This document shows positions 27,837 to 45,411 of a stretch of 64,000 bases of DNA, one piece after another. Under the pieces are notes generated by a model, which ran no database searches, had not been told where the DNA came from, and saw only the letters and a program-made list of their open reading frames with translations. The DNA comes from Burkholderiaceae bacterium. Its GTDB lineage: Bacteria > Pseudomonadota > Gammaproteobacteria > Burkholderiales > Burkholderiaceae_F. The stretch is from contig JALHMQ010000011.1 of NCBI GenBank assembly GCA_022843955.1, forward strand, positions 62,001 through 126,000. The letters run 5' to 3'. Numbering within the stretch: the stretch's first letter is position 1; each line of letters begins with the position of its first letter. A program made the position numbers and the translations under genes.

Positions 27837-28250
27837 TCAAGCCTTGGGCGTCTTGAACGGGTTCAGGACCTGCACGTCGAAGTTCGCAAAGTCGGCAACG
27901 TTGCGCGTCACCACCGTGAGCTTGTGAACAGTGGCGGTGGCCGCGATCATCGCGTCCTCGTACAGCGTGTCCGAACGGCGGTGCATCAGGCGAGCCCATC
28001 TCCGAAACGTCGCGCCGTCCATAGGTAGCACGTTGTAGGACTGGGCGACGAGATCGAGCCACGCCTCGATCTCGGCAGCCTTGGTGGCATCCTGATCTCG
28101 GGTCAGTTCGACGCCGGCCTGGATTTCGCCGAGCGTGACAGCGGACAGATGAAGATCGGCATCGTCGACCGACTGAAGCCAGGCGACCACGCCACCATGC
28201 GGGCGCGGCTTGCGGAGTTCGGAGACGATGTTGGTGTCGAGCAGGTACAT
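27837..28250 (-). CDS. PIN-domain toxin, VapC/FitB family
   Basis: A 137-residue PIN-domain ribonuclease toxin. Acidic active-site residues are in place: D5 in 'LLDTNIVSEL', E42 in 'TLGEIQAG', D99 in 'YEDAMIAATA' and D120 in 'VTRNVADF'. Family members cleave tRNA or rRNA and are held inactive by their antitoxin. The antitoxin gene lies five bases upstream on the same strand. Location at the island's left end suggests a role in retaining the element (inference). Confidence 0.9.
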   Translation of the reverse strand: MYLLDTNIVSELRKPRPHGGVVAWLQSVDDADLHLSAVTLGEIQAGVELTRDQDATKAAEIEAWLDLVAQSYNVLPMDGATFRRWARLMHRRSDTLYEDAMIAATATVHKLTVVTRNVADFANFDVQVLNPFKTPKA

Positions 28251-28255
28251 GCTCG

Positions 28256-28513
28256 TCAGCCCACCGCGGTGACCTTGCGCCTACGGGCGGAGCCTCGTGC
28301 AGGAATCAGGAGATTGGCGCGGGCCTCATCCGAGAGAAGCAGTTGCTTTAGCGATGGGCGGGCAGCGGCCTGCAGCCGGCGCCACTCGTCAACCGGCACC
28401 AGAACCGCGGCTTCGGCACCCCGCTTGGTGACCATCTGGGGTCCCTCAACCATGCAGGCATCGAGGAACTCGCTGAATCGTGCCTTCGCGTCTTGAACAG
28501 GCCATGTTTGCAT
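28256..28513 (-). CDS. Phd/YefM-family antitoxin
   Basis: An 85-residue antitoxin with the Phd/YefM N-terminus 'MQTWPVQDAKARFSEFLD' and 'QMVTKRGAEAAVLVPVDEW', the DNA-binding and dimerisation fold of the family. The C-terminal basic region should bind and block the adjacent PIN toxin. Phd-type antitoxins autorepress their operon; direct repeats of ATGACTAGT just upstream are a likely operator. Confidence 0.9.
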   Translation of the reverse strand: MQTWPVQDAKARFSEFLDACMVEGPQMVTKRGAEAAVLVPVDEWRRLQAAARPSLKQLLLSDEARANLLIPARGSARRRKVTAVG

Positions 28514-29020: not shown

Positions 29021-29138
29021 GCAAGCCACCCCCACCCGGGCCCTAGAGTGAGTCGTGCCGGGGTTCTCCCGCAGTGAGGCGCGGCAGGCGGAACATCTGC
29101 CCGCTTCGTTCGTTTATCCGCTGATAGTGGCGCCGAAC

Positions 29139-29693
29139 GTGTCCGACACCGGGCGACCGGAATCTGAACTGATTGTCCTCGCGCAGAGGGGGGATCAGGC
29201 TGCCTTTGGCGTCCTCGTGCGCCGCCACCAGGATCGCATCTATCGGCATCTGCTCAACCTGACCGGGTCGCGGGAGGAAGCGTTGGAGCTCGCGCAGGAA
29301 GCATTCATCAAGGCATGGCAGGCGCTACCGACCTGGCGGCCGGATGCGCAGTTTCACACCTGGGTCTACCGCATCGCCTCGAATGCGGCCCTCGACGTCC
29401 TGCGCCGGCGCAAGGTGGTGCAGTTCGTTCCGCTGGACGACGACTACGATGCCCCGGCGAACCAGCCCAGCCCCGAGGCGCAGTTGCAGGCCCGGCAGGG
29501 CCTGCGGGCGTTGGACGCGGCACTGGCACGCCTGCCCCCGGAGCAGCGCCAGATCGTGCTGCTGCGCGAAGTGGAGGGATTGAGTTATGACGAACTGGCG
29601 ACCACGCTGGGGATCGACGAGGGCACCGTGAAATCCAGGCTGGCCCGGGCGCGTGCCGCCCTGGCCGCGCTTTACGACGGAACAGGCAAATGA
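29139..29693 (+). CDS. ECF-family RNA polymerase sigma factor
   Basis: A sigma-70-family extracytoplasmic-function factor of about 184 residues. Region 2 contains 'RRHQDRIYRHLLNLTGSREEALELAQEAFIKAW' (split here only for description) and region 4 the 'LPPEQRQIVLLREVEGLSYDELA' helix-turn-helix with 'EGTVKSRLARAR'. The GTG giving 'VSDTGRPESEL' was chosen because ECF factors normally begin a few residues before the first helix; in-frame GTGs at 29055 and 29127 are alternatives. The anti-sigma gene overlaps by an ATGA, so the pair is co-translated. FNR-like boxes upstream suggest redox-linked control. Confidence 0.9.
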   Translation: MSDTGRPESELIVLAQRGDQAAFGVLVRRHQDRIYRHLLNLTGSREEALELAQEAFIKAWQALPTWRPDAQFHTWVYRIASNAALDVLRRRKVVQFVPLDDDYDAPANQPSPEAQLQARQGLRALDAALARLPPEQRQIVLLREVEGLSYDELATTLGIDEGTVKSRLARARAALAALYDGTGK

Positions 29694-30148
29694 ACGATCG
29701 AACACAGGCGGAATGCCCGCGCACTGAAGCCATCTCGGCGTTGATCGACGGCGAGCTCGGCGAATCCGCCGCCCTGGAACTGAGGCTGCATGCGGCGCAG
29801 TGCGCGCACTGCGGTTCGGCCTTGCTCGCGTTCACCGGAATGCGTGCGGATCTCCGGGCGCTGCGTGAGATCCGCAGCGACGTCGACATCGCCGCGCTGG
29901 TCCTGCCACGACTGCCCAAGCGGGCAGTGCCCCGGCGCGAACCTGCGCGCCCATGGGGCGGCCTGTGGCACATCGGACCGCGCGCCCTGGGCGGGGTCGC
30001 GGCGCTGGGCGTCGGTGCCTACCTCGGGCTGATGCTCGTCGCTGGCGGCGGGGTCGCCCTGCGGCCCGCGTCGATGTCCGTCTTCTCCGGCGAGCCGCCC
30101 GGCGCGTATTGCGCGGGGCTGCCGTCGTGTTCTGCACGAGGAAGATGA
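29690..30148 (+). CDS. Zinc-finger (zf-HC2) anti-sigma factor
   Basis: A 152-residue membrane anti-sigma factor. The N-terminal domain 'AISALIDGELGESAALELRLHAAQCAHCGSAL' (described as a whole) carries the H-x3-C-x2-C zinc signature; a single membrane helix lies at about 103-123, followed by a short periplasmic tail with two Cys. Such proteins hold the cognate ECF factor at the membrane until a signal arrives. It overlaps the sigma gene and is followed one base later by the sensor-like gene. Confidence 0.85.
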   Translation: MNDRTQAECPRTEAISALIDGELGESAALELRLHAAQCAHCGSALLAFTGMRADLRALREIRSDVDIAALVLPRLPKRAVPRREPARPWGGLWHIGPRALGGVAALGVGAYLGLMLVAGGGVALRPASMSVFSGEPPGAYCAGLPSCSARGR

Positions 30149-30149
30149 C

Positions 30150-30602
30150 ATGCAAAACCGCGGACTCGTTTCTGCCCTGATCCTTTCGGTGCTTCTCAAT
30201 CTGGGCGTGGTCGGCGCCGCCGGTTACCGCTCGCTGGTCCAGGATCGCTCGGGTGCGACCGACCTTGCCTCCCGGCTCGAACTGGACGCGGCGCAACGCA
30301 CGCGCTGGCACAGCCTGGAGCAGAACTTCGTGCGCGAGCTCGACGCCGGCTGGGAGGAGATTGCCCGCCATCGCGAGGCGCTGGTACGCGATGTGTTCTC
30401 CGAGCAACCCGACCCGACGCGCATCGAAGCCGCACGCGCCCGCATCGCCGAGGTGCAGATGCAGCAGCAGCAGCGCGTGATCGCTCAATTCCTGCAGGAG
30501 CGGGAGATCCTGAACGCCGATCAGAGGCGCAAACTGGTCGACGTGTTGCTTCGCGAGGAGCCGGCCGCGCCGCGCGAGCGGCAATTGCACGGGGGGCAAT
30601 GA
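30150..30602 (+). CDS. Periplasmic sensor, CnrX/Spy-like (heavy-metal sensor family)
   Basis: A 150-residue protein with an N-terminal membrane anchor or signal (about 6-26) and an all-helical periplasmic domain. The 'LELDAAQRTRWHSLEQNF' and 'LNADQRRKLVDVL' segments resemble the paired LTxxQ-type helices of the Spy/CpxP/CnrX (metal-resist) family. In Cupriavidus, CnrX senses Ni/Co together with anti-sigma CnrY and sigma CnrH; the same three-part layout occurs here. The actual signal is unknown, and clear metal-ligand clusters are not visible. Confidence 0.75.
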   Translation: MQNRGLVSALILSVLLNLGVVGAAGYRSLVQDRSGATDLASRLELDAAQRTRWHSLEQNFVRELDAGWEEIARHREALVRDVFSEQPDPTRIEAARARIAEVQMQQQQRVIAQFLQEREILNADQRRKLVDVLLREEPAAPRERQLHGGQ

Positions 30603-30630
30603 TTCACCGGAGATTCGGCCAGCAGGTGCT

Positions 30631-30658
30631 GGAACATTCGGCTCTTCCGATCGTTCAA
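30631..30658 (+). promoter_or_regulatory. Candidate ECF-type promoter
   Basis: GGAACAT at 30631-30637, 15 bases, then GTTCAA at 30653-30658 resembles the sigmaE/ECF pattern GGAACTT-N15-GTCTAA. It lies about 60 bases upstream of the DUF6448-like gene and could be a target of the sigma factor encoded just before it. Confidence 0.35.
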
Positions 30659-30715
30659 GCATGCAGGGGGCGGCAATGGTGCCGACTTCCAACCGCTGAA
30701 CCGGAGAATCCCGAC

Positions 30716-31372
30716 ATGTTGACCGTGAATCGCAACACCTTCCGCCGCTACCTCACCCTCGTCGCCGGCGCCGTGGCCCTCTCGTGGGGCGCCGCGGCCC
30801 AGGCTCACTGCGATACCCTGGACGGACCTGTCGTCACCGATGCGCGCAAGGCGCTCGACACCGGCAACGTCAACATGGTGCTGGGCTGGGTGCAGAAGAA
30901 GGACGAGGCGGAAATCCGGGATGCATTCCAGAAGTCCGTCAGCGTGCGCAAGACCGGCGCCACCGGCAAGGAACTGGCCGATCGCTACTTCTTCGAGACC
31001 TTGGTGCGCGTGCACCGCGCGGGCGAGGGTGCGGCGTACACGGGGCTCAAGCCCGCTGGCGAGATCGAGCCGGCCATCGCCGCCGCCGACAAGTCGATCG
31101 AGACGGGCAAGCTGGAGCCCGTGGCCAAGCTCGTAAAGGAACAAGTGGAGCACGGACTGCACAAGCAGTTCGAAGCAGTCGCCTCGAAAAGGAAGTTCAA
31201 CCCGAACGACGTGGAGGCAGCGCGCTCCTACGTCGGTGCCTACGTAGAGTACGTGCACTATGTCGAGGGGGTGTACAACGCGGCCGGCCGCGCGAAGTCC
31301 GAGCATGCGGGTCATGCATCGGCGGCTTCGACGACGACGGCTGCCGCCAAGCCAACGGGGCATCAACACTGA
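30716..31372 (+). CDS. Secreted DUF6448-like protein with His-rich tail
   Basis: A 218-residue exported protein. A Sec signal peptide (about 1-30, cleaved after AQA) is followed by 'HCDTLDGPVVTDARKALDTGNVNMVLGWV', which places it with DUF6448-type proteins. The helical body contains conserved 'ADRYFFETLVRVHRAGEGA' and ends in a His-rich tail (EHAGH and GHQH) that could bind metal. Function is unknown. The ATG has a GGAG box. It follows the sigma/anti-sigma/sensor genes and precedes the reductase operon; the family name is from memory of sequence pattern. Confidence 0.7.
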   Translation: MLTVNRNTFRRYLTLVAGAVALSWGAAAQAHCDTLDGPVVTDARKALDTGNVNMVLGWVQKKDEAEIRDAFQKSVSVRKTGATGKELADRYFFETLVRVHRAGEGAAYTGLKPAGEIEPAIAAADKSIETGKLEPVAKLVKEQVEHGLHKQFEAVASKRKFNPNDVEAARSYVGAYVEYVHYVEGVYNAAGRAKSEHAGHASAASTTTAAAKPTGHQH

Positions 31373-31662
31373 CGCGCAGGCCAGCGTCGCGGCTCTACCC
31401 GCCCGGCGCTGGTGGACAAACCGGCAGCCGGGGCTGGGCCGGTGTCAACACCGGATCACACGTCCCCGGCGACATGCCGGCCCGCGCATGGCTGCGAAGC
31501 GTGGCGCACGCTGGGCCTCGGCCATTGGGGTCCAGGAATTCTGAGCTGCCGCCCTTGGCGGTCCAGCCATTGAGGCCCGTCAAGGAGCCGATGCTGCCGG
31601 GACCTGAAAATCGTCTCTTGTGATGTACGTGCTGGGCATTGCTCTGTCTGCCCTCGACATCG

Positions 31663-32907
31663 ATGACCGCCACCGAACTTCTCGCCTTGATTTCTGCCGC
31701 GCTGCTCTTGCAGCTGGCGGCGGGGATCGGCTGGACAGTTTGGCGGCGTCGCGCCGCACAGGTCACCGCCAAGTCGTTGGCGCCGGCCGCGAAGCCCGCC
31801 AAAACCGACGCGGCGTGGTCGGGTTGGCGCGAATTTCGTGTCGCTCAGCGTGCGTTCGAGGACGCAGCGCAGTCGCATTGTTCGTTCTACCTGCAGCCCG
31901 TCGACGGCCAGCCGCTGCCTCCGTTCAAGCCTGGCCAGTTCCTCACCTTCGCGCTGGATGTCACGCCTCGCAGTGCGGATGCGGCGGCAACGGCGCGTGT
32001 GATTACCCGCTGCTACTCGCTGTCGGATCGACCCGAATCCGCGCACTACCGGGTGACGATCAAACGTGTGCCTGCACCGGCGGAACAACCCGAGTTCGAC
32101 CCCGGCCTGTCGTCCAACCATTTCCACGATCGTGTGCAGGTCGGCGACGCCCTGCGCGTCAAAGCGCCGGCTGGGCACTTCTTCATTGATCCTGATCCGA
32201 CCGTGCCTGCCGTGCTGATCGGCGGCGGCATCGGCATCACGCCGATGATGAGCATGCTGCGATGGTGTGTCGCCCAGCAGCCGCAGCGCGTGGTTCACCT
32301 GTATTACGGCCTGCGCAACAGCGGCGAGCACGCCTTCAAGAAACAGCTCGAGGAACTTGCCGCGTCGCACCCGGCACTGCGTCTGAACATCGTCTACAGC
32401 CGCCCCGGAGAGTCCGACCACCAGGGGCGCGACTATCAGCACCAAGGCCACGTGGACGTCGAGCTTCTGCGGCGCACGCTGCCGCACGGGCGCCACCAGT
32501 TCTACGTCTGCGGGCCGCCCATGATGATGCAGGCGCTTGTTCCGGCACTGGCCGCGTGGGGTGTTCCGGTCGCCGACATCCACTACGAGGCTTTCGGTCC
32601 GGCCTCCGTCAAGCTCCCGGGCGCGCCCGAAGTCACCGCATCGGCCGTCGCCGCGGTCGAAGTACGGTTCCAGCGTTCCGGTCGCACATTGACCTGGAAT
32701 GGACGGGACGCGTCGTTGCTGGACTTTGCGGAGCGGCACGGCGTCGCGGTCGAGTCCGGCTGTCGCTCGGGCGGCTGCGGGAGCTGCGAGACCCGATTGC
32801 TGGAAGGCACCGTGCAATACGAGCACGCGCCAGACCACGACGTGGCGGCGGGGCATTGCCTGCTCTGCGTGGGCCGTCCCTCGTCACCGCTGGTGCTTGA
32901 AGCCTGA
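31663..32907 (+). CDS. Membrane-anchored FAD/NAD(P) reductase with C-terminal [2Fe-2S] domain
   Basis: A 414-residue flavoprotein reductase. Residues 4-26 form an N-terminal membrane anchor. The FAD-binding domain has RCYS (115-118), and the NAD(P) domain has 'LIGGGIGITPMM' (about 184-195) and CGPPM (282-286). A plant-type [2Fe-2S] domain at the C-terminus has ligands C366, C371, C374 and probably C401. This order is that of phthalate-dioxygenase-reductase or Hcr-like electron-transfer proteins. Its stop overlaps the start of the next gene (TGATG), so it is likely the electron entry point of a complex with the following membrane protein and decaheme cytochrome (inference). Confidence 0.88.
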   Translation: MTATELLALISAALLLQLAAGIGWTVWRRRAAQVTAKSLAPAAKPAKTDAAWSGWREFRVAQRAFEDAAQSHCSFYLQPVDGQPLPPFKPGQFLTFALDVTPRSADAAATARVITRCYSLSDRPESAHYRVTIKRVPAPAEQPEFDPGLSSNHFHDRVQVGDALRVKAPAGHFFIDPDPTVPAVLIGGGIGITPMMSMLRWCVAQQPQRVVHLYYGLRNSGEHAFKKQLEELAASHPALRLNIVYSRPGESDHQGRDYQHQGHVDVELLRRTLPHGRHQFYVCGPPMMMQALVPALAAWGVPVADIHYEAFGPASVKLPGAPEVTASAVAAVEVRFQRSGRTLTWNGRDASLLDFAERHGVAVESGCRSGGCGSCETRLLEGTVQYEHAPDHDVAAGHCLLCVGRPSSPLVLEA

Positions 32908-33491
32908 TGCCCGCGCCTGCAAGACTCCTCAGCCGCGAGGTGCTGCCCTTCCTGGGCAGCTTCGCCGCGCTGGTACTCGTCGCACTGGCGCTGGACGGCT
33001 TGCTGCATCTATTCGACCTGCTGTGGATCGGCCGCTGGCTTGGCATCCCCGGCACGTTGCTGATCATCGGGTCGACCGCCTATTCGCTGCGCAAGCGCAA
33101 GCTCATTCAGAGCGGGTATCCGGCCACGCTGCTGCGCTGGCACGAGGTGCTGGCCTGGCTCGGTTCGCTACTGGTGCTGGTGCATGCCGGCGTGCATTTC
33201 AACGCCATTCTCGGCTGGCTGGCCGTGGGGGCCATGCTGATCAATGTCGGCAGCGGGCTGACCGGCAAGTTCCTCCTGGACCGCTCGCGGCGGCGCATGG
33301 AGGAGGCACGCCAGCGCATGCGCGAGCGCGGCCTCAGCGATGCCGAACTCGATGACCGCCTGTACTGGGACAGCTTGACCTTCGACGTGGTCAAGAAGTG
33401 GCGCGTCGTGCACTTCCCCATCACGCTGGCCTTCACCGTGCTGGCCTTGGCGCACATCGTGGCAATCTTCCTGTTCTGGGGCTGGAAGTGA
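32907..33491 (+). CDS. Four-helix membrane protein, probable cytochrome b-like electron carrier
   Basis: A 194-residue inner-membrane protein with about four membrane segments (roughly 12-35, 45-60, 79-115 and 170-192). Histidines H79, H93, H97, H169 and H183 lie in or at the ends of helices, a distribution suited to binding b-type heme, as in cytochrome b561 or ferric-reductase-like proteins. A basic cytoplasmic loop (about 121-165) separates the last helix. I do not recognise a named family with certainty. Both neighbouring genes overlap it by a few bases, which implies a complex with the reductase and the decaheme cytochrome. Confidence 0.75.
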   Translation: MPAPARLLSREVLPFLGSFAALVLVALALDGLLHLFDLLWIGRWLGIPGTLLIIGSTAYSLRKRKLIQSGYPATLLRWHEVLAWLGSLLVLVHAGVHFNAILGWLAVGAMLINVGSGLTGKFLLDRSRRRMEEARQRMRERGLSDAELDDRLYWDSLTFDVVKKWRVVHFPITLAFTVLALAHIVAIFLFWGWK

Positions 33492-34363
33492 AGAAGCCCC
33501 CCATCTTGCTGATCGTCATCGCGCTGAACCTGCTCGTGCTGGTGGCGCTGGCCTTCGTCTATCCCCACCTCATGGTCAGCCCGGGACCGTTGGTGAAGGG
33601 CCATGCGGAACTCGCCACCGACTGCTTTGCGTGCCACGCCGCTTGGCGGGGGGCGTCGTCGCGGCAATGCATCGCCTGCCATGCGGTTGCAGATGTGGGC
33701 CTGAAGACGACTAAGGGCGTGCCCATCGCTGCCGGAACCATCAAGGGCTCGTTCCACCAGGAACTGATCGAGCAGGATTGCATCGCCTGCCACAGCGACC
33801 ATCAGGGGCCGAAGCTCACCAAACGCAGCCGCAAGCCGTTCTCCCACGAGCTGCTGAAGGTTGCTGTGCGAGACACCTGCTCTTCATGCCACGCTGCGCC
33901 CAAAGACACCGTGCACCGCGGGCTCAAAGTTGAATGCTCGAAATGCCATGAAAGCAAGGCCTGGAAGCCCGCGCACTTCGACCATGCCCTGCTGGCCAAG
34001 GCCGAGCTGGACCGCTGCGAGAGCTGCCACAACGCGCCGACCGACCGGCTGCATCGGCAGATCCAGGGCAGCTGCAAGTCGTGCCACAAGACCGAGGCCT
34101 GGAAGCCGGCGACCTTCGACCACAACAAATACTTCGTGCTCGATCGTGACCACGAGGCGACTTGCGAGACCTGCCACAGGAACAACGACTACAGCCGCTA
34201 CACCTGCTATGGCTGCCACGAGCACTCGCAGGCAAAGATCCGCGCCGAGCACGTCGAGGAAGGCATCCAGAACTTCGAGAACTGCGTGGAGTGCCACCGT
34301 GATCCGCGCGTGGAGCCCGAAAAGCGCGGGGGGCGGGAACGGGGCCAACGGGAGCGAGACTGA
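33488..34363 (+). CDS. Membrane-anchored decaheme c-type cytochrome
   Basis: A 291-residue protein with an N-terminal membrane anchor (about 5-25) and ten CxxCH heme-binding motifs at about 46, 61, 98, 131, 150, 177, 196, 226, 240 and 266. Two repeated units (H-x8-CxxCH...WKPA.FDH) show cytochrome c3/c7-like organisation with extra His ligands. The heme domain should face the periplasm and depend on Ccm maturation. The GTG start overlaps the upstream stop (GTGA). With the two preceding genes it could form a route from NAD(P)H through a membrane heme protein to periplasmic hemes. The acceptor is unknown. Confidence 0.9.
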   Translation: MKKPPILLIVIALNLLVLVALAFVYPHLMVSPGPLVKGHAELATDCFACHAAWRGASSRQCIACHAVADVGLKTTKGVPIAAGTIKGSFHQELIEQDCIACHSDHQGPKLTKRSRKPFSHELLKVAVRDTCSSCHAAPKDTVHRGLKVECSKCHESKAWKPAHFDHALLAKAELDRCESCHNAPTDRLHRQIQGSCKSCHKTEAWKPATFDHNKYFVLDRDHEATCETCHRNNDYSRYTCYGCHEHSQAKIRAEHVEEGIQNFENCVECHRDPRVEPEKRGGRERGQRERD

Positions 34364-39605: not shown

Positions 39606-40036
39606 AGCAGTGCCCTTTCGCACGTTGAGTTCGTTCGAAATGAGTCCGCGCGGGGCGTAACCTTCCCCGCCAGGTGGCTCGGCTTCATTCCCCCGAGTCA
39701 ACCTCGCTGCCCTCCGGCTCGGCCCGTTTTGACGCTGCCTAGCAGAAGTCGTTTTGCGGCCAGAGCGGCGTTGGTCAACTGCGCGACCCTGACTGTTGCC
39801 CCAGGCAGGATGTCATCTGGTCCATGCTTGGCGTAAAGCCATCTCTGGAATCCAAGACCGCGTCGCTACCCAAACAATTGTTGACTAAATCAGTTGGAAA
39901 TCGCTACATTCCCGATTGATGCGGTCGGGAATTATTTGAGCGCAGCGTGATCCTACGTGCACGGCAGCAAGGGGCTGCCCGCGCGACCCCACAGCGCTTG
40001 ACCACACTCAGTCATGCACACTCTGAGGCACTCACG
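39606..40036. other. Intergenic region upstream of iscR
   Basis: A 431-bp region without a gene between the phosphatase and iscR. The right half carries the iscR promoter and an overlapping IscR-type site; nothing is recognised in the left half. Confidence 0.5.
39877..39910 (+). promoter_or_regulatory. iscR promoter with IscR type-1 site
   Basis: A 25-bp sequence (39877-39901) containing GACT-AAATC-AGTT fits the IscR type-1 consensus (ATASYYGACTRWWWYAGTCRRSTAT) with about four mismatches. It overlaps the -35 hexamer TTGACT (39881-39886); TACATT at 39905-39910 is the -10 with an 18-base spacer. Holo-IscR binding here should repress the isc operon. Confidence 0.75.
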
Positions 40037-40549
40037 ATGAGACTGACCACCAAGGGCCGCTTTGCGGTAACCGCGATGATCGATCTGGCCCTTCGCCAGC
40101 ACAACGGGCCGGTGACGTTGGCCGGCATCAGTCAGCGCCAGAAGATTTCCCTGTCCTACCTCGAACAACTGTTCGGCCGCCTGCGCCGTCATGAACTGGT
40201 CGAAAGCACGCGCGGGCCGGGCGGCGGGTACACGCTCGGCAAGACGATGGTCGATATCTCTGTCGCCGACATCATCTACGCCGTGGACGAACCTCTTGAC
40301 GCGACGCAGTGCGGCGGCAAGGAAAACTGCGATAACGACCAGCGTTGCATGACCCACGATCTGTGGTCGAACTTGAACCGGGTGATGGTTGATTACCTGG
40401 ATTCAGTGACGCTTCACGATCTGGTGGAGCAGCAAAAGCAGCGCATGGCGCAGCAGGGTGTCAATGTCACGGTCCTGCACGATAATCGCCGCGACGGCGA
40501 GAGACGGTCCAGCCATAGCGGCTCAAAAGAACAGGTTTCCGTCGGTTGA
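40037..40549 (+). CDS. iscR: Fe-S cluster regulator IscR
   Basis: A 170-residue Rrf2-family repressor. The N-terminal winged helix starts '[19 protein letters not shown]'; the cluster ligands C92, C98, C104 and H107 sit at the E. coli positions. In its [2Fe-2S] form it represses the isc operon, apparently through the site in its own promoter. The ATG was chosen over an upstream extension by family alignment. iscS follows after 13 bases. Confidence 0.96.
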
Positions 40550-40562
40550 GGGGAGTGCGTTG

Positions 40563-41771
40563 ATGCAATTGCCGATCTATCTTGATTATTCAGCCACCAC
40601 GCCGGTTGATCCGCGCGTGGTGGACAAGATGATCCCGTACCTGCGGCAGAACTTCGGTAATCCTGCCTCGCGCAGTCACTCGTTTGGCTGGACTGCGGAA
40701 CAAGCGGTCGAGCAGGCGCGTGAACAGGTGGCGACCCTCGTCAACGCTGACCCGCGAGAAATCGTCTGGACCTCCGGCGCAACAGAGTCGATTAATCTCG
40801 CTCTCAAAGGTGTCGCCCACTTCTACAAGGACAAGGGCAAGCACCTTGTCACCGTCAAGACCGAGCACAAGGCGACCCTCGATACGATGCGCGAACTCGA
40901 GCGCGAGGGTTTCTCCGTCACGTACCTGGATGTTCAGGCGGACGGTCTGATCGGTCTCAACGCACTTGAATCCGCTCTGCGGCCCGACACGATCTGCGTG
41001 TCGGTGATGTACGTGAACAATGAAATCGGTGTCATCCAGGACATTCCGGCGATCGGCGAGATGTGTCGTTCGCGCGGCATCGTGTTCCACGTCGATGCGG
41101 CACAGGCGACGGGCAAGGTCGTGATCGATCTCGCATCGCTGAAGGTCGACCTGATGTCGTTCTCCGGGCACAAAACGTATGCGCCTAAGGGCATTGGCGC
41201 GCTTTACGTGCGTCGCAAGCCGCGGGTCCGGCTCGAGGCGCAGATGCATGGCGGCGGGCATGAGCGCGGCTTGCGCTCCGGCACGTTGCCGACGCACCAG
41301 ATCGTCGGCATCGGCGAGGCGTTCCGTATCGCGCAGGCAGAGATGGCCACCGAGAACGAGCGCATCCGCATGCTGCGTGACCGGCTGTGGAAGGGCCTGT
41401 CGCAGATCGAGGAGGTGTATGTCAATGGTGATCTCGAGCAGCGGGTCCCGCACAACCTGAACGTGAGCTTCAATTTCGTCGAAGGCGAGTCGCTGATCAT
41501 GGCGATCAAGGATGTCGCCGTGTCGTCGGGATCGGCCTGCACGTCGGCGAGCCTGGAGCCCTCCTATGTTCTGCGCGCGCTGGGTCGCAGCGATGAACTC
41601 GCTCACAGTTCTATCCGCTTCTCGATCGGTCGGTTCACCACCGAAGAAGAGGTCGACTACACAATCGACCTCCTGCAGCGCAAGGTTGCCAAGTTGCGTT
41701 CGATGTCTCCGCTGTGGGAGATGCACCAGGACGGTATTGATCTGAGCACGGTCCAATGGGCGGCGCACTAG
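40563..41771 (+). CDS. iscS: Cysteine desulfurase IscS
   Basis: A 402-residue PLP enzyme that takes sulfur from cysteine as a persulfide and passes it to IscU and other acceptors. The N-terminus '[16 protein letters not shown]', the PLP lysine K204 in '[10 protein letters not shown]' and the persulfide Cys326 in '[12 protein letters not shown]' are all present. The ATG is preceded by GGGGAG. Position between iscR and iscU is standard. Confidence 0.98.
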
Positions 41772-41810
41772 GGCAGACCGGCACAACTACTGAAGATCAG
41801 TGAGGCAGAC

Positions 41811-42218
41811 ATGGCATACAGCGAAAAAGTCATCGACCACTACGAGAACCCGCGCAACGTCGGTTCGTTCGACAAGGGCGACGACGCAGTCGGCACCGGC
41901 ATGGTCGGCGCACCCGCGTGCGGCGACGTGATGAAGCTTCAGATCCGCGTCAACGAGCAGGGCGTCATCGAGGATGCGCGCTTCAAGACGTACGGGTGTG
42001 GCTCCGCGATCGCCTCCAGTTCGCTAGTTACAGAGTGGGTCAAGGGCAAGACGCTGGATCAGGCGATGCAACTGAAGAACACGCAGATCGCCGAAGAACT
42101 TGCGCTGCCGCCGGTCAAGATCCACTGCTCGATCCTCGCCGAAGATGCGATCAAGGCGGCGATCGTCGACTATCGGCAGAAGCACGGCGCGACGGAGCCG
42201 CACAAAGCCGCCGCATAG
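41811..42218 (+). CDS. iscU: Fe-S cluster scaffold IscU
   Basis: A 135-residue scaffold on which IscS-derived sulfur and iron are assembled. The cluster residues C37, C63 and C106 and the adjacent Asp39 are present, as is the LPPVK motif (99-103) recognised by HscA. It starts 39 bases after iscS behind a GAGGCAG box. Confidence 0.98.
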
Positions 42219-42262
42219 TGCGGATGACGGCAGGCTGTTTGCAGGATTGGGAGGACGGGAAG

Positions 42263-42586
42263 ATGGCTGTCACGATGACGGAGCGCGCTGCCAAGCATGT
42301 GGCGGGCTTCCTCGAGAAGCGCGGCAAGGGACTTGGCTTGCGTGTGGGTGTGCGCACGACCGGCTGCTCCGGCATGGCATACAAGCTCGAGTATGTGGAC
42401 GCCGAGAGTCCGGAGGATCAGGCATTTGAGTGCCACGGCGTCAAGGTCTATGTGGACCCGAAAAGCCTTGCGTACATCGACGGCACTGAGCTGGACTTCG
42501 TGCGCGAAGGCTTGAACGAGGGCTTTCAGTTCAACAACCCTCGCGAAAAGGACCGCTGCGGCTGTGGGGAGTCTTTCCGCGTCTAG
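42263..42586 (+). CDS. iscA: A-type Fe-S carrier IscA
   Basis: A 107-residue A-type carrier. The three conserved cysteines C35 ('TTGCSG'), C99 and C101 ('RCGCGESF') match E. coli IscA. It receives clusters from the scaffold and delivers them to [4Fe-4S] targets. A strong hairpin terminator follows 14 bases after its stop, ahead of the hscBA-fdx part. Confidence 0.96.
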
Positions 42587-42600
42587 CGTTTCCGCGATGG

Positions 42601-42636
42601 CAAGCGGCTGCCATTTTGCAGCCGCTTGTCTTTTCC
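42601..42636 (+). terminator. Internal terminator/attenuator between iscA and hscB
   Basis: An 11-bp perfect stem (CAAGCGGCTGC / GCAGCCGCTTG) with a 6-base loop and a following TCTTTTCC tract. It meets the criteria of an intrinsic terminator yet lies inside the isc operon, 18 bases before the likely hscB start. It should lower expression of hscB-hscA-fdx-iscX relative to iscRSUA. Confidence 0.75.
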
Positions 42637-42654
42637 GCCTTCAGCTGCAACTCC

Positions 42655-43185
42655 GTGCCTGCCGCCCTCGATCACTTTGAGCTTTTTGGCCTGACGCCGT
42701 CTTTCGCAGTCGAGCTTGATGCATTGGAGACGGCTTACAAGCGTGTGCAAGCGCAGGTCCACCCTGATCGGTTCGCCACCGGATCGGCCGCGGAGCGCCG
42801 CGTGGCAATGCAATGGGCCACGCAGGCGAACGAGGCATACCGCACGCTGCGCGACCCCGGCAGACGTGCTGCCTATCTGTGCGAGCGGCAGGGCGTTGCC
42901 ATCGACGCCGAGTCGAACACCGCGATGCCTCCCGCATTCCTGTTGCAGCAAATGGCCTGGCGAGAGGCGCTGGACGAGGTACGAGTCGATGGTCGTAGCG
43001 CAGATGAGCTGTTGGCTGAGGTGGAACAGGCGCGTGCCGACACCACCGCTGCGCTGGCACAGGCAATCGATGTCGACGCTGACTACCCGCGCGCCGCGGG
43101 GCTGGTCCGCCAGCTGATGTTCATCGATCGCTTTCGCGCCGAGCCGGCTGCACACAGGGATGTGCACCAGGCGGCGGGGGGTTAG
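42655..43185 (+). CDS. hscB: Co-chaperone HscB (Hsc20)
   Basis: A 176-residue J-protein that brings IscU to HscA and stimulates its ATPase. The opening '[20 protein letters not shown]' and the HPD tripeptide (H36-D38) mark the J-domain; the C-terminal three-helix bundle binds IscU. GTG at 42655 gives the normal family N-terminus; an upstream in-frame TTG lies within the terminator hairpin and is unlikely. hscA starts two bases after its stop. Confidence 0.94.
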
Positions 43186-43187
43186 CC

Positions 43188-45059
<1,872 letters not shown>

Positions 45060-45072
45060 CGACAGACAAGCC

Positions 45073-45411
45073 ATGCCGAAGATCACCGTACTGCCCCACC
45101 CGCAGATCTGCCCGCAGGGCGCGACCATCGAGGCCGTGCCGGGGGAGAGCATTTGCCGCAATCTGCTCGACAACCATATCGAGATCGAGCATGCCTGCGA
45201 GATGTCCTGCGCCTGCACCACCTGCCACGTGATCGTGAAGCAGGGCCTTGCGCAGTTGAACCCGTCAAGCGAGGACGAGGACGATCTGCTGGACATGGCC
45301 TGGGGCCTGACACCGGCCTCGCGCCTGTCTTGTCAGGCGATCGTCGGCGAAGACGATCTGGTGGTCGAGATTCCCAAGTACTCGATCAACCACGCGCGCG
45401 AGAACCACTGA
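45073..45411 (+). CDS. fdx: ISC-type [2Fe-2S] ferredoxin
   Basis: A 112-residue ferredoxin that supplies electrons for cluster assembly. Ligands C42, C48, C51 and C87 sit at the positions of E. coli Fdx, in '[14 protein letters not shown]' and 'RLSCQAI'. It starts 13 bases after hscA, and iscX follows after 16 bases. Confidence 0.97.

Follow-up and report, generated by a model that had tools for sequence, protein, structure and literature searches.

A conserved reductase, membrane protein and multiheme cytochrome operon predicted to carry electrons from NAD(P)H to periplasmic hemes

Introduction

By what route might electrons from NAD(P)H reach hemes on the far side of the inner membrane? The question is raised by three overlapping genes in a Burkholderiaceae bacterium (assembly GCA_022843955.1, contig JALHMQ010000011.1, positions 62,001-126,000 of the forward strand). 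They occupy positions 31663-34363 of this 64,000-nt stretch, which we call the window, and we refer to them by the working names RED (reductase), MEM (membrane protein) and CYT (cytochrome). Most known routes to periplasmic multiheme cytochromes start from quinol. A first-pass annotation of the window had suggested that this module passes electrons from NAD(P)H through a membrane heme protein to periplasmic hemes, as part of a periplasmic or extracellular reductase route that it could not place among named systems. From our sequence analysis, we lean towards reading the operon as a compact inner-membrane electron outlet, made under low oxygen, that would run from NAD(P)H to periplasmic hemes. 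Its three genes are as follows:

31663-32907, forward strand: RED, ATG start, 414 aa, N-terminally anchored FAD/NAD(P)/[2Fe-2S] reductase
32907-33491, forward strand: MEM, 194 aa, five-helix predicted diheme cytochrome b
33488-34363, forward strand: CYT, GTG start, 291 aa, N-terminally anchored decaheme c-type cytochrome

RED and MEM overlap in TGATG (1 nt) and MEM and CYT in GTGA (4 nt), as the first-pass annotation had them, along with the extent of the module. GC content at the third codon position (0.79 in RED, 0.88 in MEM and 0.84 in CYT) gives a strong coding signal in each gene.

Conservation and distribution of the three-gene unit

A MEM-seeded scan of species genomes returned 66 fetched loci (cited below by L numbers), with MEM identities of 53-93%. 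These come mostly from alpha-, beta- and gammaproteobacteria, with one Bacteroidota bin. CYT lies directly downstream of MEM in 65 of them, the remaining locus being cut by a contig end, and RED lies directly upstream in 60. The MEM stop codon TGA overlaps a possible CYT start (A/G/TTGA) at all 65 loci whose contig holds the junction; at the other junction, 40 of the 60 loci show the aligned MEM start overlapping the stop of RED.

To offset the MEM seed of this search, we also carried out a reciprocal test on an unbiased sample of 369 genomes from the class. Eight of these genomes (about 2% of the sample; E at most 1.3e-75) have MEM orthologues, and the same eight have CYT orthologues, adjacent to MEM; weaker CYT matches elsewhere include cytochromes of the PCC3 complex discussed below. 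RED orthologues were present in seven of the eight, adjacent except in one genome (G268), where the gene stood at the end of another contig. Four other genomes held RED-like reductases (E 1e-86 to 1e-106) without MEM. By this reciprocal test, the RED-MEM-CYT unit is real, coherent and sparse. Chance is excluded, because the gene order recurs in 60/66 loci and the carriers of MEM and CYT are the identical eight genomes; all three genes are genuine and belong to a single conserved unit. The first-pass annotation would have given up its reading if such genes almost never occurred together, and that prospect is dispelled here. Its view that they are made together is likewise supported, in the form of a co-translated, conserved three-gene unit. 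In the literature searched, with subscription journals largely outside its coverage, the unit was found nowhere described, and a plasmid search gave no match.

Predicted cofactors and membrane arrangement

The proposed identity of RED as an N-terminally anchored FAD-NAD(P)-[2Fe-2S] reductase held up well. NAD_binding_1 (PF00175), Fer2 (PF00111) and FAD_binding_6 (PF00970) all scored above the Pfam cut-offs, and a hydrophobic N-terminal helix (residues 6-24) is followed by RRR. Across 61 aligned relatives, the FAD residues R116/Y118/S119, the NAD residues G189/G191/T193/P194 and C283-G284-P285, and the [2Fe-2S] cysteines C367/C372/C375/C399 are invariant. With its FAD, NAD and Fer2 domains and intact cofactor motifs, RED has the makeup of an FNR-type flavin reductase joined to a plant-type ferredoxin domain. 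For its FAD/NAD part, the best NCBIfam match was the flavohemoprotein Hmp, at 247 bits and below the 432-bit cut-off.

CYT has exactly ten CxxCH motifs and a single N-terminal helix (residues 6-24), in agreement with the anchored decaheme protein that had been proposed. It matches PF02085, PF14522 and PF14537 (class III, c7 and c3 cytochrome families) above their gathering cut-offs. Its relatives mostly carry eight CxxCH motifs, and ten are found in the window copy and many of its closest relatives. Eight hemes with their accompanying histidines are invariant and common to all complete relatives; the two extra hemes sit in an insert at about residues 139-186. A predicted model of CYT was of low confidence (pLDDT 67.5, pTM 0.44) and was not used. 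An MtrA-like identity for CYT was rejected, the score against TIGR03508 (MtrA/DmsE decaheme) being 30.1 bits versus a cut-off of 192.2.

MEM required the most revision, having been described with four helices and five histidines. Its AlphaFold2 model (mean pLDDT 75, pTM 0.64) most likely has five transmembrane helices (4-35, 46-61, 72-97, 101-140 and 156-190), and there are six histidines (H34, H79, H93, H97, H169 and H183). All six are invariant in 66-67 homologues, so that the histidine conservation named by the first-pass annotation as a check on its reading is present. H79 and H93 lie on helix 3 and H169 and H183 on helix 5, each pair 14 residues apart (H-X13-H). Heme ligands are spaced in this way in transmembrane diheme cytochromes b, and MEM is probably such a protein, with predicted ligand pairs 79/93 and 169/183. 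An SGLTG motif (residues 116-120) is conserved on helix 4; helix 5 carries WX3HX13H, and helix 3 keeps HX13H without the W at -4.

Loops 60-78 and 121-168 of MEM are positively charged, which would place H79 and H169 close to the cytoplasmic face and H93 and H183 nearer the periplasm. By the positive-inside rule, we infer that the catalytic part of RED is cytoplasmic and the hemes of CYT periplasmic. MEM gave no match to the ferric reductase membrane domain/MsrQ family (PF01794) up to E 0.1. The top VIA-align rows for the MEM model were generic helical bundles (Z up to 10.2, below the helical-bundle caution level), and for this reason we make no fold claim for MEM.

Proposed electron path

In the path that we propose, RED, tethered to the membrane through its N-terminal helix and with its catalytic part lying in the cytoplasm, would oxidise NAD(P)H at its FAD and pass single electrons on to its own [2Fe-2S] cluster. 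The cluster would reduce the inner b heme of MEM (H79/H169), from which the electron would cross MEM to the outer b heme (H93/H183) and be handed on to CYT, an anchored periplasmic cytochrome of eight or ten hemes. This would then serve as a bis-histidine heme relay to periplasmic acceptors or, where they are present (as in this host), to outer-membrane acceptors such as MtrCAB.

Gene order, cofactor motifs, the conserved heme ligands with their spacing and a promoter element can all be read from the DNA, and the cofactor order, from NAD(P)H through FAD/[2Fe-2S] and two b hemes to c hemes, is well supported. We infer that RED feeds MEM directly, that electrons move outward without quinone and from NADH rather than NADPH, and what the acceptor may be. 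With NADH at about -320 mV and a membrane potential that assists the exit of electrons, thermodynamics favours outward flow, as does the putative FNR control described below. The route suggested by the first-pass annotation thus stands as to the chain of cofactors that leads from NAD(P)H to c hemes in the periplasm, with MEM apparently built for b hemes across the membrane. An extracellular end is not supported, the operon having neither a porin nor an outer-membrane cytochrome.

Homologues in the PCC3 and PCC4 clusters

PCC3 and PCC4 are porin-cytochrome complexes that have been hypothesised for iron oxidisers, with Fe(II) oxidation as their proposed role. Each includes a five-helix inner-membrane protein with an SGxxG and two WX3HX13H motifs, which He et al. 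(2017) read as a two-b-heme protein, possibly exchanging electrons with quinone (PMC5566968). By profile comparison (hhalign 97.9%, E 6e-13 over helices 1-4), MEM and the inner-membrane protein of PCC3 are homologues, and MEM shows the features of that family, namely five helices, SGLTG and WX3HX13H on helix 5, with the tryptophan of helix 3 absent. The fetched loci of distant MEM relatives are PCC3 clusters (L088-L091 and L111-L117), which encode the membrane protein, an 18-27-heme and an 11-43-heme cytochrome and, where the contig reaches, an outer-membrane-protein candidate. In 10 of these 11 loci, a membrane-anchored FAD/2x[4Fe-4S] pyridine-nucleotide oxidoreductase lies divergently beside the PCC3 inner-membrane protein, at these coordinates:

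L088:2054-3349
L089:351-1862
L090:9688-10983
L091:9244-10545
L111:4223-5530
L113:3703-4992
L114:6303-7610
L115:4359-5666
L116:5377-6696
L117:3795-5093

The PCC3 descriptions that we found in the literature name four components, and this FAD/2x[4Fe-4S] reductase is not among them (PMC5566968 included). RED, in turn, is 45% identical over 365 residues (E 7e-115) to the reductase of a PCC4-like locus, L124, whose cluster also holds a porin candidate, a tetraheme protein, an Fe-S/cNMP protein and a membrane protein with both WX3HX13H motifs. The match of that membrane protein to MEM (hhalign probability 12%) is too weak to establish homology. Two unrelated families of anchored reductase recur beside such membrane proteins, which is the strongest comparative argument for wiring to NAD(P)H.

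The operon was also considered as a member of PCC3 or PCC4, and this was rejected because it has no porin or outer-membrane cytochrome. No porin-like outer-membrane protein was recognised in the operon or among the called genes of the window, and none recurs beside the 66 loci. There is no extracellular multiheme cytochrome in the cluster, CYT being the sole multiheme protein in the window, and the PCC4 set of a porin and three cytochromes with 4, 5 and 10 hemes is absent from operon and window. The first-pass statement that the combination is not a named system is therefore right in that no published description was found, and needs qualifying in that MEM is homologous to the PCC3 inner-membrane protein and RED to a PCC4-like reductase.

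A broader proposal can be made, which we hold only tentatively and regard as possible rather than likely. It is that the operon represents a quinone-independent outlet from NAD(P)H to the periplasm that has spread horizontally as a self-contained, FNR-controlled unit, and that the same core of anchored reductase and diheme b protein underlies PCC3 and PCC4, which would then run outward on NAD(P)H.

A putative FNR promoter and the direction of flow

Two elements upstream of RED point to control by the regulator FNR:

31570-31583, forward strand: FNR/Anr-type box TTGAGGCCCGTCAA (TTGAN6TCAA), 93 bp upstream of the RED start
31606-31611, forward strand: probable -10 element gaaaat, 23-28 nt after the box, a moderate match to the family consensus cAGAAT

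The box is the only TTGAN6TCAA in the window and lies one mismatch from the stricter consensus TTGAYN4RTCAA. Because a single box is expected by chance 0.44 times per window, the case for FNR rests on its position and conservation. Of 65 homologous operons, 34 have TTGAN6TCAA in the 300 bp before them, as do 16 of 32 after thinning to 80% MEM identity. In controls, random stretches of the same loci gave a mean of 0.46 out of 65 (maximum 3), and other genes there gave 15 out of 387. Across sites, an A-rich cAGAAT element stands at positions 23-28 after the box. A distance of this size between box and -10 element is the spacing of class-II FNR promoters, in which the box lies 22 nt before the -10 hexamer. 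The host encodes an FNR with N-terminal cysteines, above the curated cut-off. The operon is a putative member of a class-II FNR regulon, and the pattern across the family is clear.

Such a promoter fits the disposal of reductant under low oxygen, and this speaks against an inward route, in which a periplasmic or extracellular donor such as Fe(II) would pass electrons through CYT and MEM to quinone or, via RED, to NAD(P)+. We consider this route improbable. It would accord with the Fe(II) oxidation proposed for PCC3 and PCC4 (PMC5566968), and the operon is present in Leptothrix and Sphaerotilus (L046 and L061). Against it stands the lack of a porin or outer-membrane cytochrome in the operon. 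Reduction of NAD(P)+ by donors in the Fe(II) range would also, on general grounds, be uphill in redox terms and against the membrane potential.

Loss of RED and the possibility of a quinol donor

Several results weigh against an NAD(P)H-fed outlet. MEM lacks an adjacent RED at seven loci, six of the 66 together with L095 (L043, L050, L060, L066, L067, L072 and L095), all of which keep MEM and CYT. About half of the operons have no recognisable FNR box. An MtrA-family cytochrome above the cut-off is absent in 38 of 50 operon carriers, so that no common acceptor emerges. The fold search with MEM gave no significant match (best Foldseek E 0.76).

No RED orthologue was found elsewhere in the seven RED-less genomes, completeness being known for that of L095 alone (rated 100%). 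On the MEM tree, which is partly resolved, the RED-less loci need about five changes. At L043, the region before MEM (L043:7764-7986) still codes for the 28 C-terminal residues of RED and apparently for its 59 N-terminal residues as well, the N-terminal match alone being weak; at L072, the last 21 residues remain just before MEM (L072:7546-7608). Both are binned genomes. Because these scraps, marks of a deletion within RED, remain in place, the absence of RED at the two loci is secondary. The comparison indicates that RED was lost several times while MEM-CYT persisted, and that at L043 and L072 it was deleted from a three-gene operon.

The persistence of MEM and CYT without RED means that a second electron entry, quinol or other, may exist, or that MEM-CYT may be decaying at these loci. 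The independence from quinone that we propose rests on the presence of RED, and the RED-less forms weaken it. MEM-CYT might, in particular, be a quinol dehydrogenase in the manner of CymA or CbcL, with its b hemes reduced by quinol and RED acting separately or as a modulator. We regard this as unlikely. It would explain the survival of MEM-CYT at seven loci, and it fits a weak match of MEM to PF01292, the prokaryotic cytochrome b561/Ni-Fe hydrogenase cytochrome b family, whose members are quinol-active (24.6 bits, below the gathering cut-off of 30.1), and the quinone exchange proposed for the PCC3 and PCC4 inner-membrane proteins (PMC5566968). However, RED adjoins MEM in about 90% of loci, mostly with overlapping frames, unrelated anchored reductases recur at PCC3 loci (10/11) and in the PCC4-like cluster, and RED was, on the evidence of the scraps at two RED-less loci, lost from an ancestor with all three genes. 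We continue to favour the feeding of MEM by RED.

Host context, acceptors and neighbouring genes

The host genome encodes a complete MtrC-MtrA-MtrB above curated cut-offs and a second OmcA/MtrC-family cytochrome that is a decaheme lipoprotein (together at L122:5269-11322 and L121:7848-10349, on contigs C6 and C27). On the strength of these proteins, the host is a candidate metal- or electrode-respiring bacterium. Both the Mtr region and a further multiheme block of the host have TTGAN6TCAA boxes ahead of cytochrome genes. In this block (L123:2922-7083), genes for an 11-heme cytochrome, a protein resembling cytochrome b561 and an anchored protein with 6 hemes are found together, and an FNR-type box lies at L123:7172.

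MtrA is enriched among operon carriers, at 12 of 50 versus 23 of 361 (Fisher p 3e-4, with taxonomy uncontrolled). The operon as simply the inner-membrane partner of MtrCAB was rejected as a general account, given the carriers without MtrA above the cut-off (38/50). Mtr is a plausible acceptor in this host and cannot serve as such for the carriers in general.

Among the genes next to the operon, one for a cation-transporting P-type ATPase is the most frequent, at about 20 loci (e.g., L008:3845-6586, L017, L023, L027 and L028). Universal stress, VIT1, cation-efflux and BON-domain proteins are rarer neighbours. This neighbourhood hints at an island concerned with stress or low oxygen. Some of these neighbours (universal stress proteins, BON-domain proteins and cation P-type ATPases) might also accompany a role in periplasmic repair or stress, as in MsrPQ, in which electrons would go to a dedicated periplasmic reductase or peroxidase and not to respiration. 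An AhpF-like/AhpC-like pair adjoins L046, and MsrQ offers a precedent, as a membrane heme b protein fed by a cytosolic flavin reductase. We nevertheless find such a role very improbable: no single reductase gene recurs within or beside the operon, the top neighbour family (the P-type ATPase) accounts for 11 of 102 adjacent proteins, and eight to ten hemes exceed the needs of a simple repair relay.

In the window itself, an ECF sigma factor, an anti-sigma factor, a Metal_resist (CpxP-like) protein and a DUF6448 protein lie in a row at 29055-31372, upstream of the module and on the same strand. This block was rejected as part of the system, since besides two weak sigma-factor matches it does not recur beside homologues. 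Further features, judged by eye from the translations, are an apparent PIN-domain toxin with a Phd/YefM-like antitoxin at 27837-28513 and an apparent Fe-S cluster assembly (isc) block downstream of the module at 39947-45411.

Implications and comparison with known systems

What the operon points to is a route that leads straight from NAD(P)H to hemes beyond the membrane and consists of three proteins, all of a size suited to expression and reconstitution. For the inner-membrane proteins of PCC3 and PCC4, it also offers a partner that can be tested, in the form of a membrane-anchored reductase. If the operon does run outward, the working direction of PCC3 and PCC4 would need revisiting.

Among better known systems, the NO-detoxifying flavohemoprotein Hmp resembles RED in its reductase part, as the NCBIfam match indicates, whereas RED lacks a globin and has an anchor at its N-terminus and a [2Fe-2S] domain at its C-terminus. 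Geobacter CbcL and other b/c-type quinol dehydrogenases can be likened to MEM-CYT in combining a multiheme c cytochrome with a diheme membrane cytochrome b. They are set apart by their description as one fused, quinol-fed protein without an NAD(P)H reductase partner. In MsrPQ-Fre, ferric reductases and NOX, a cytosolic flavin reductase passes electrons to a membrane b heme and on to an outside acceptor, much as we propose for RED and MEM. Ferric reductase domains also carry H-X13-H heme pairs (PMC5566968). MEM differs from these systems in having no match to the ferric reductase membrane domain and in having a multiheme cytochrome as its periplasmic partner.

PCC4 clusters, represented here by the PCC4-like locus L124, share with the operon an anchored FNR-type FAD/NAD/[2Fe-2S] reductase, an inner-membrane protein with predicted heme-ligand motifs (two WX3HX13H in L124) and multiheme cytochromes. 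Beyond these, PCC4 has a porin, an Fe-S protein and several multiheme cytochromes of its own. With PCC3, the operon shares a homologous five-helix protein, in which helix 4 carries SGxxG and helices 3 and 5 each carry H-X13-H, a multiheme cytochrome downstream and an anchored reductase adjoining. The PCC3 membrane protein is longer, at 300 aa, with a long insert between helices 4 and 5. PCC3 also differs in its 18-27-heme periplasmic cytochrome, its further 11-43-heme cytochrome and its outer-membrane protein, and its reductase belongs to another family than RED and is divergently transcribed. Judging from its proteins, the operon is a stand-alone variant of the inner-membrane core of PCC3 and PCC4, relatives that are themselves hypothetical.

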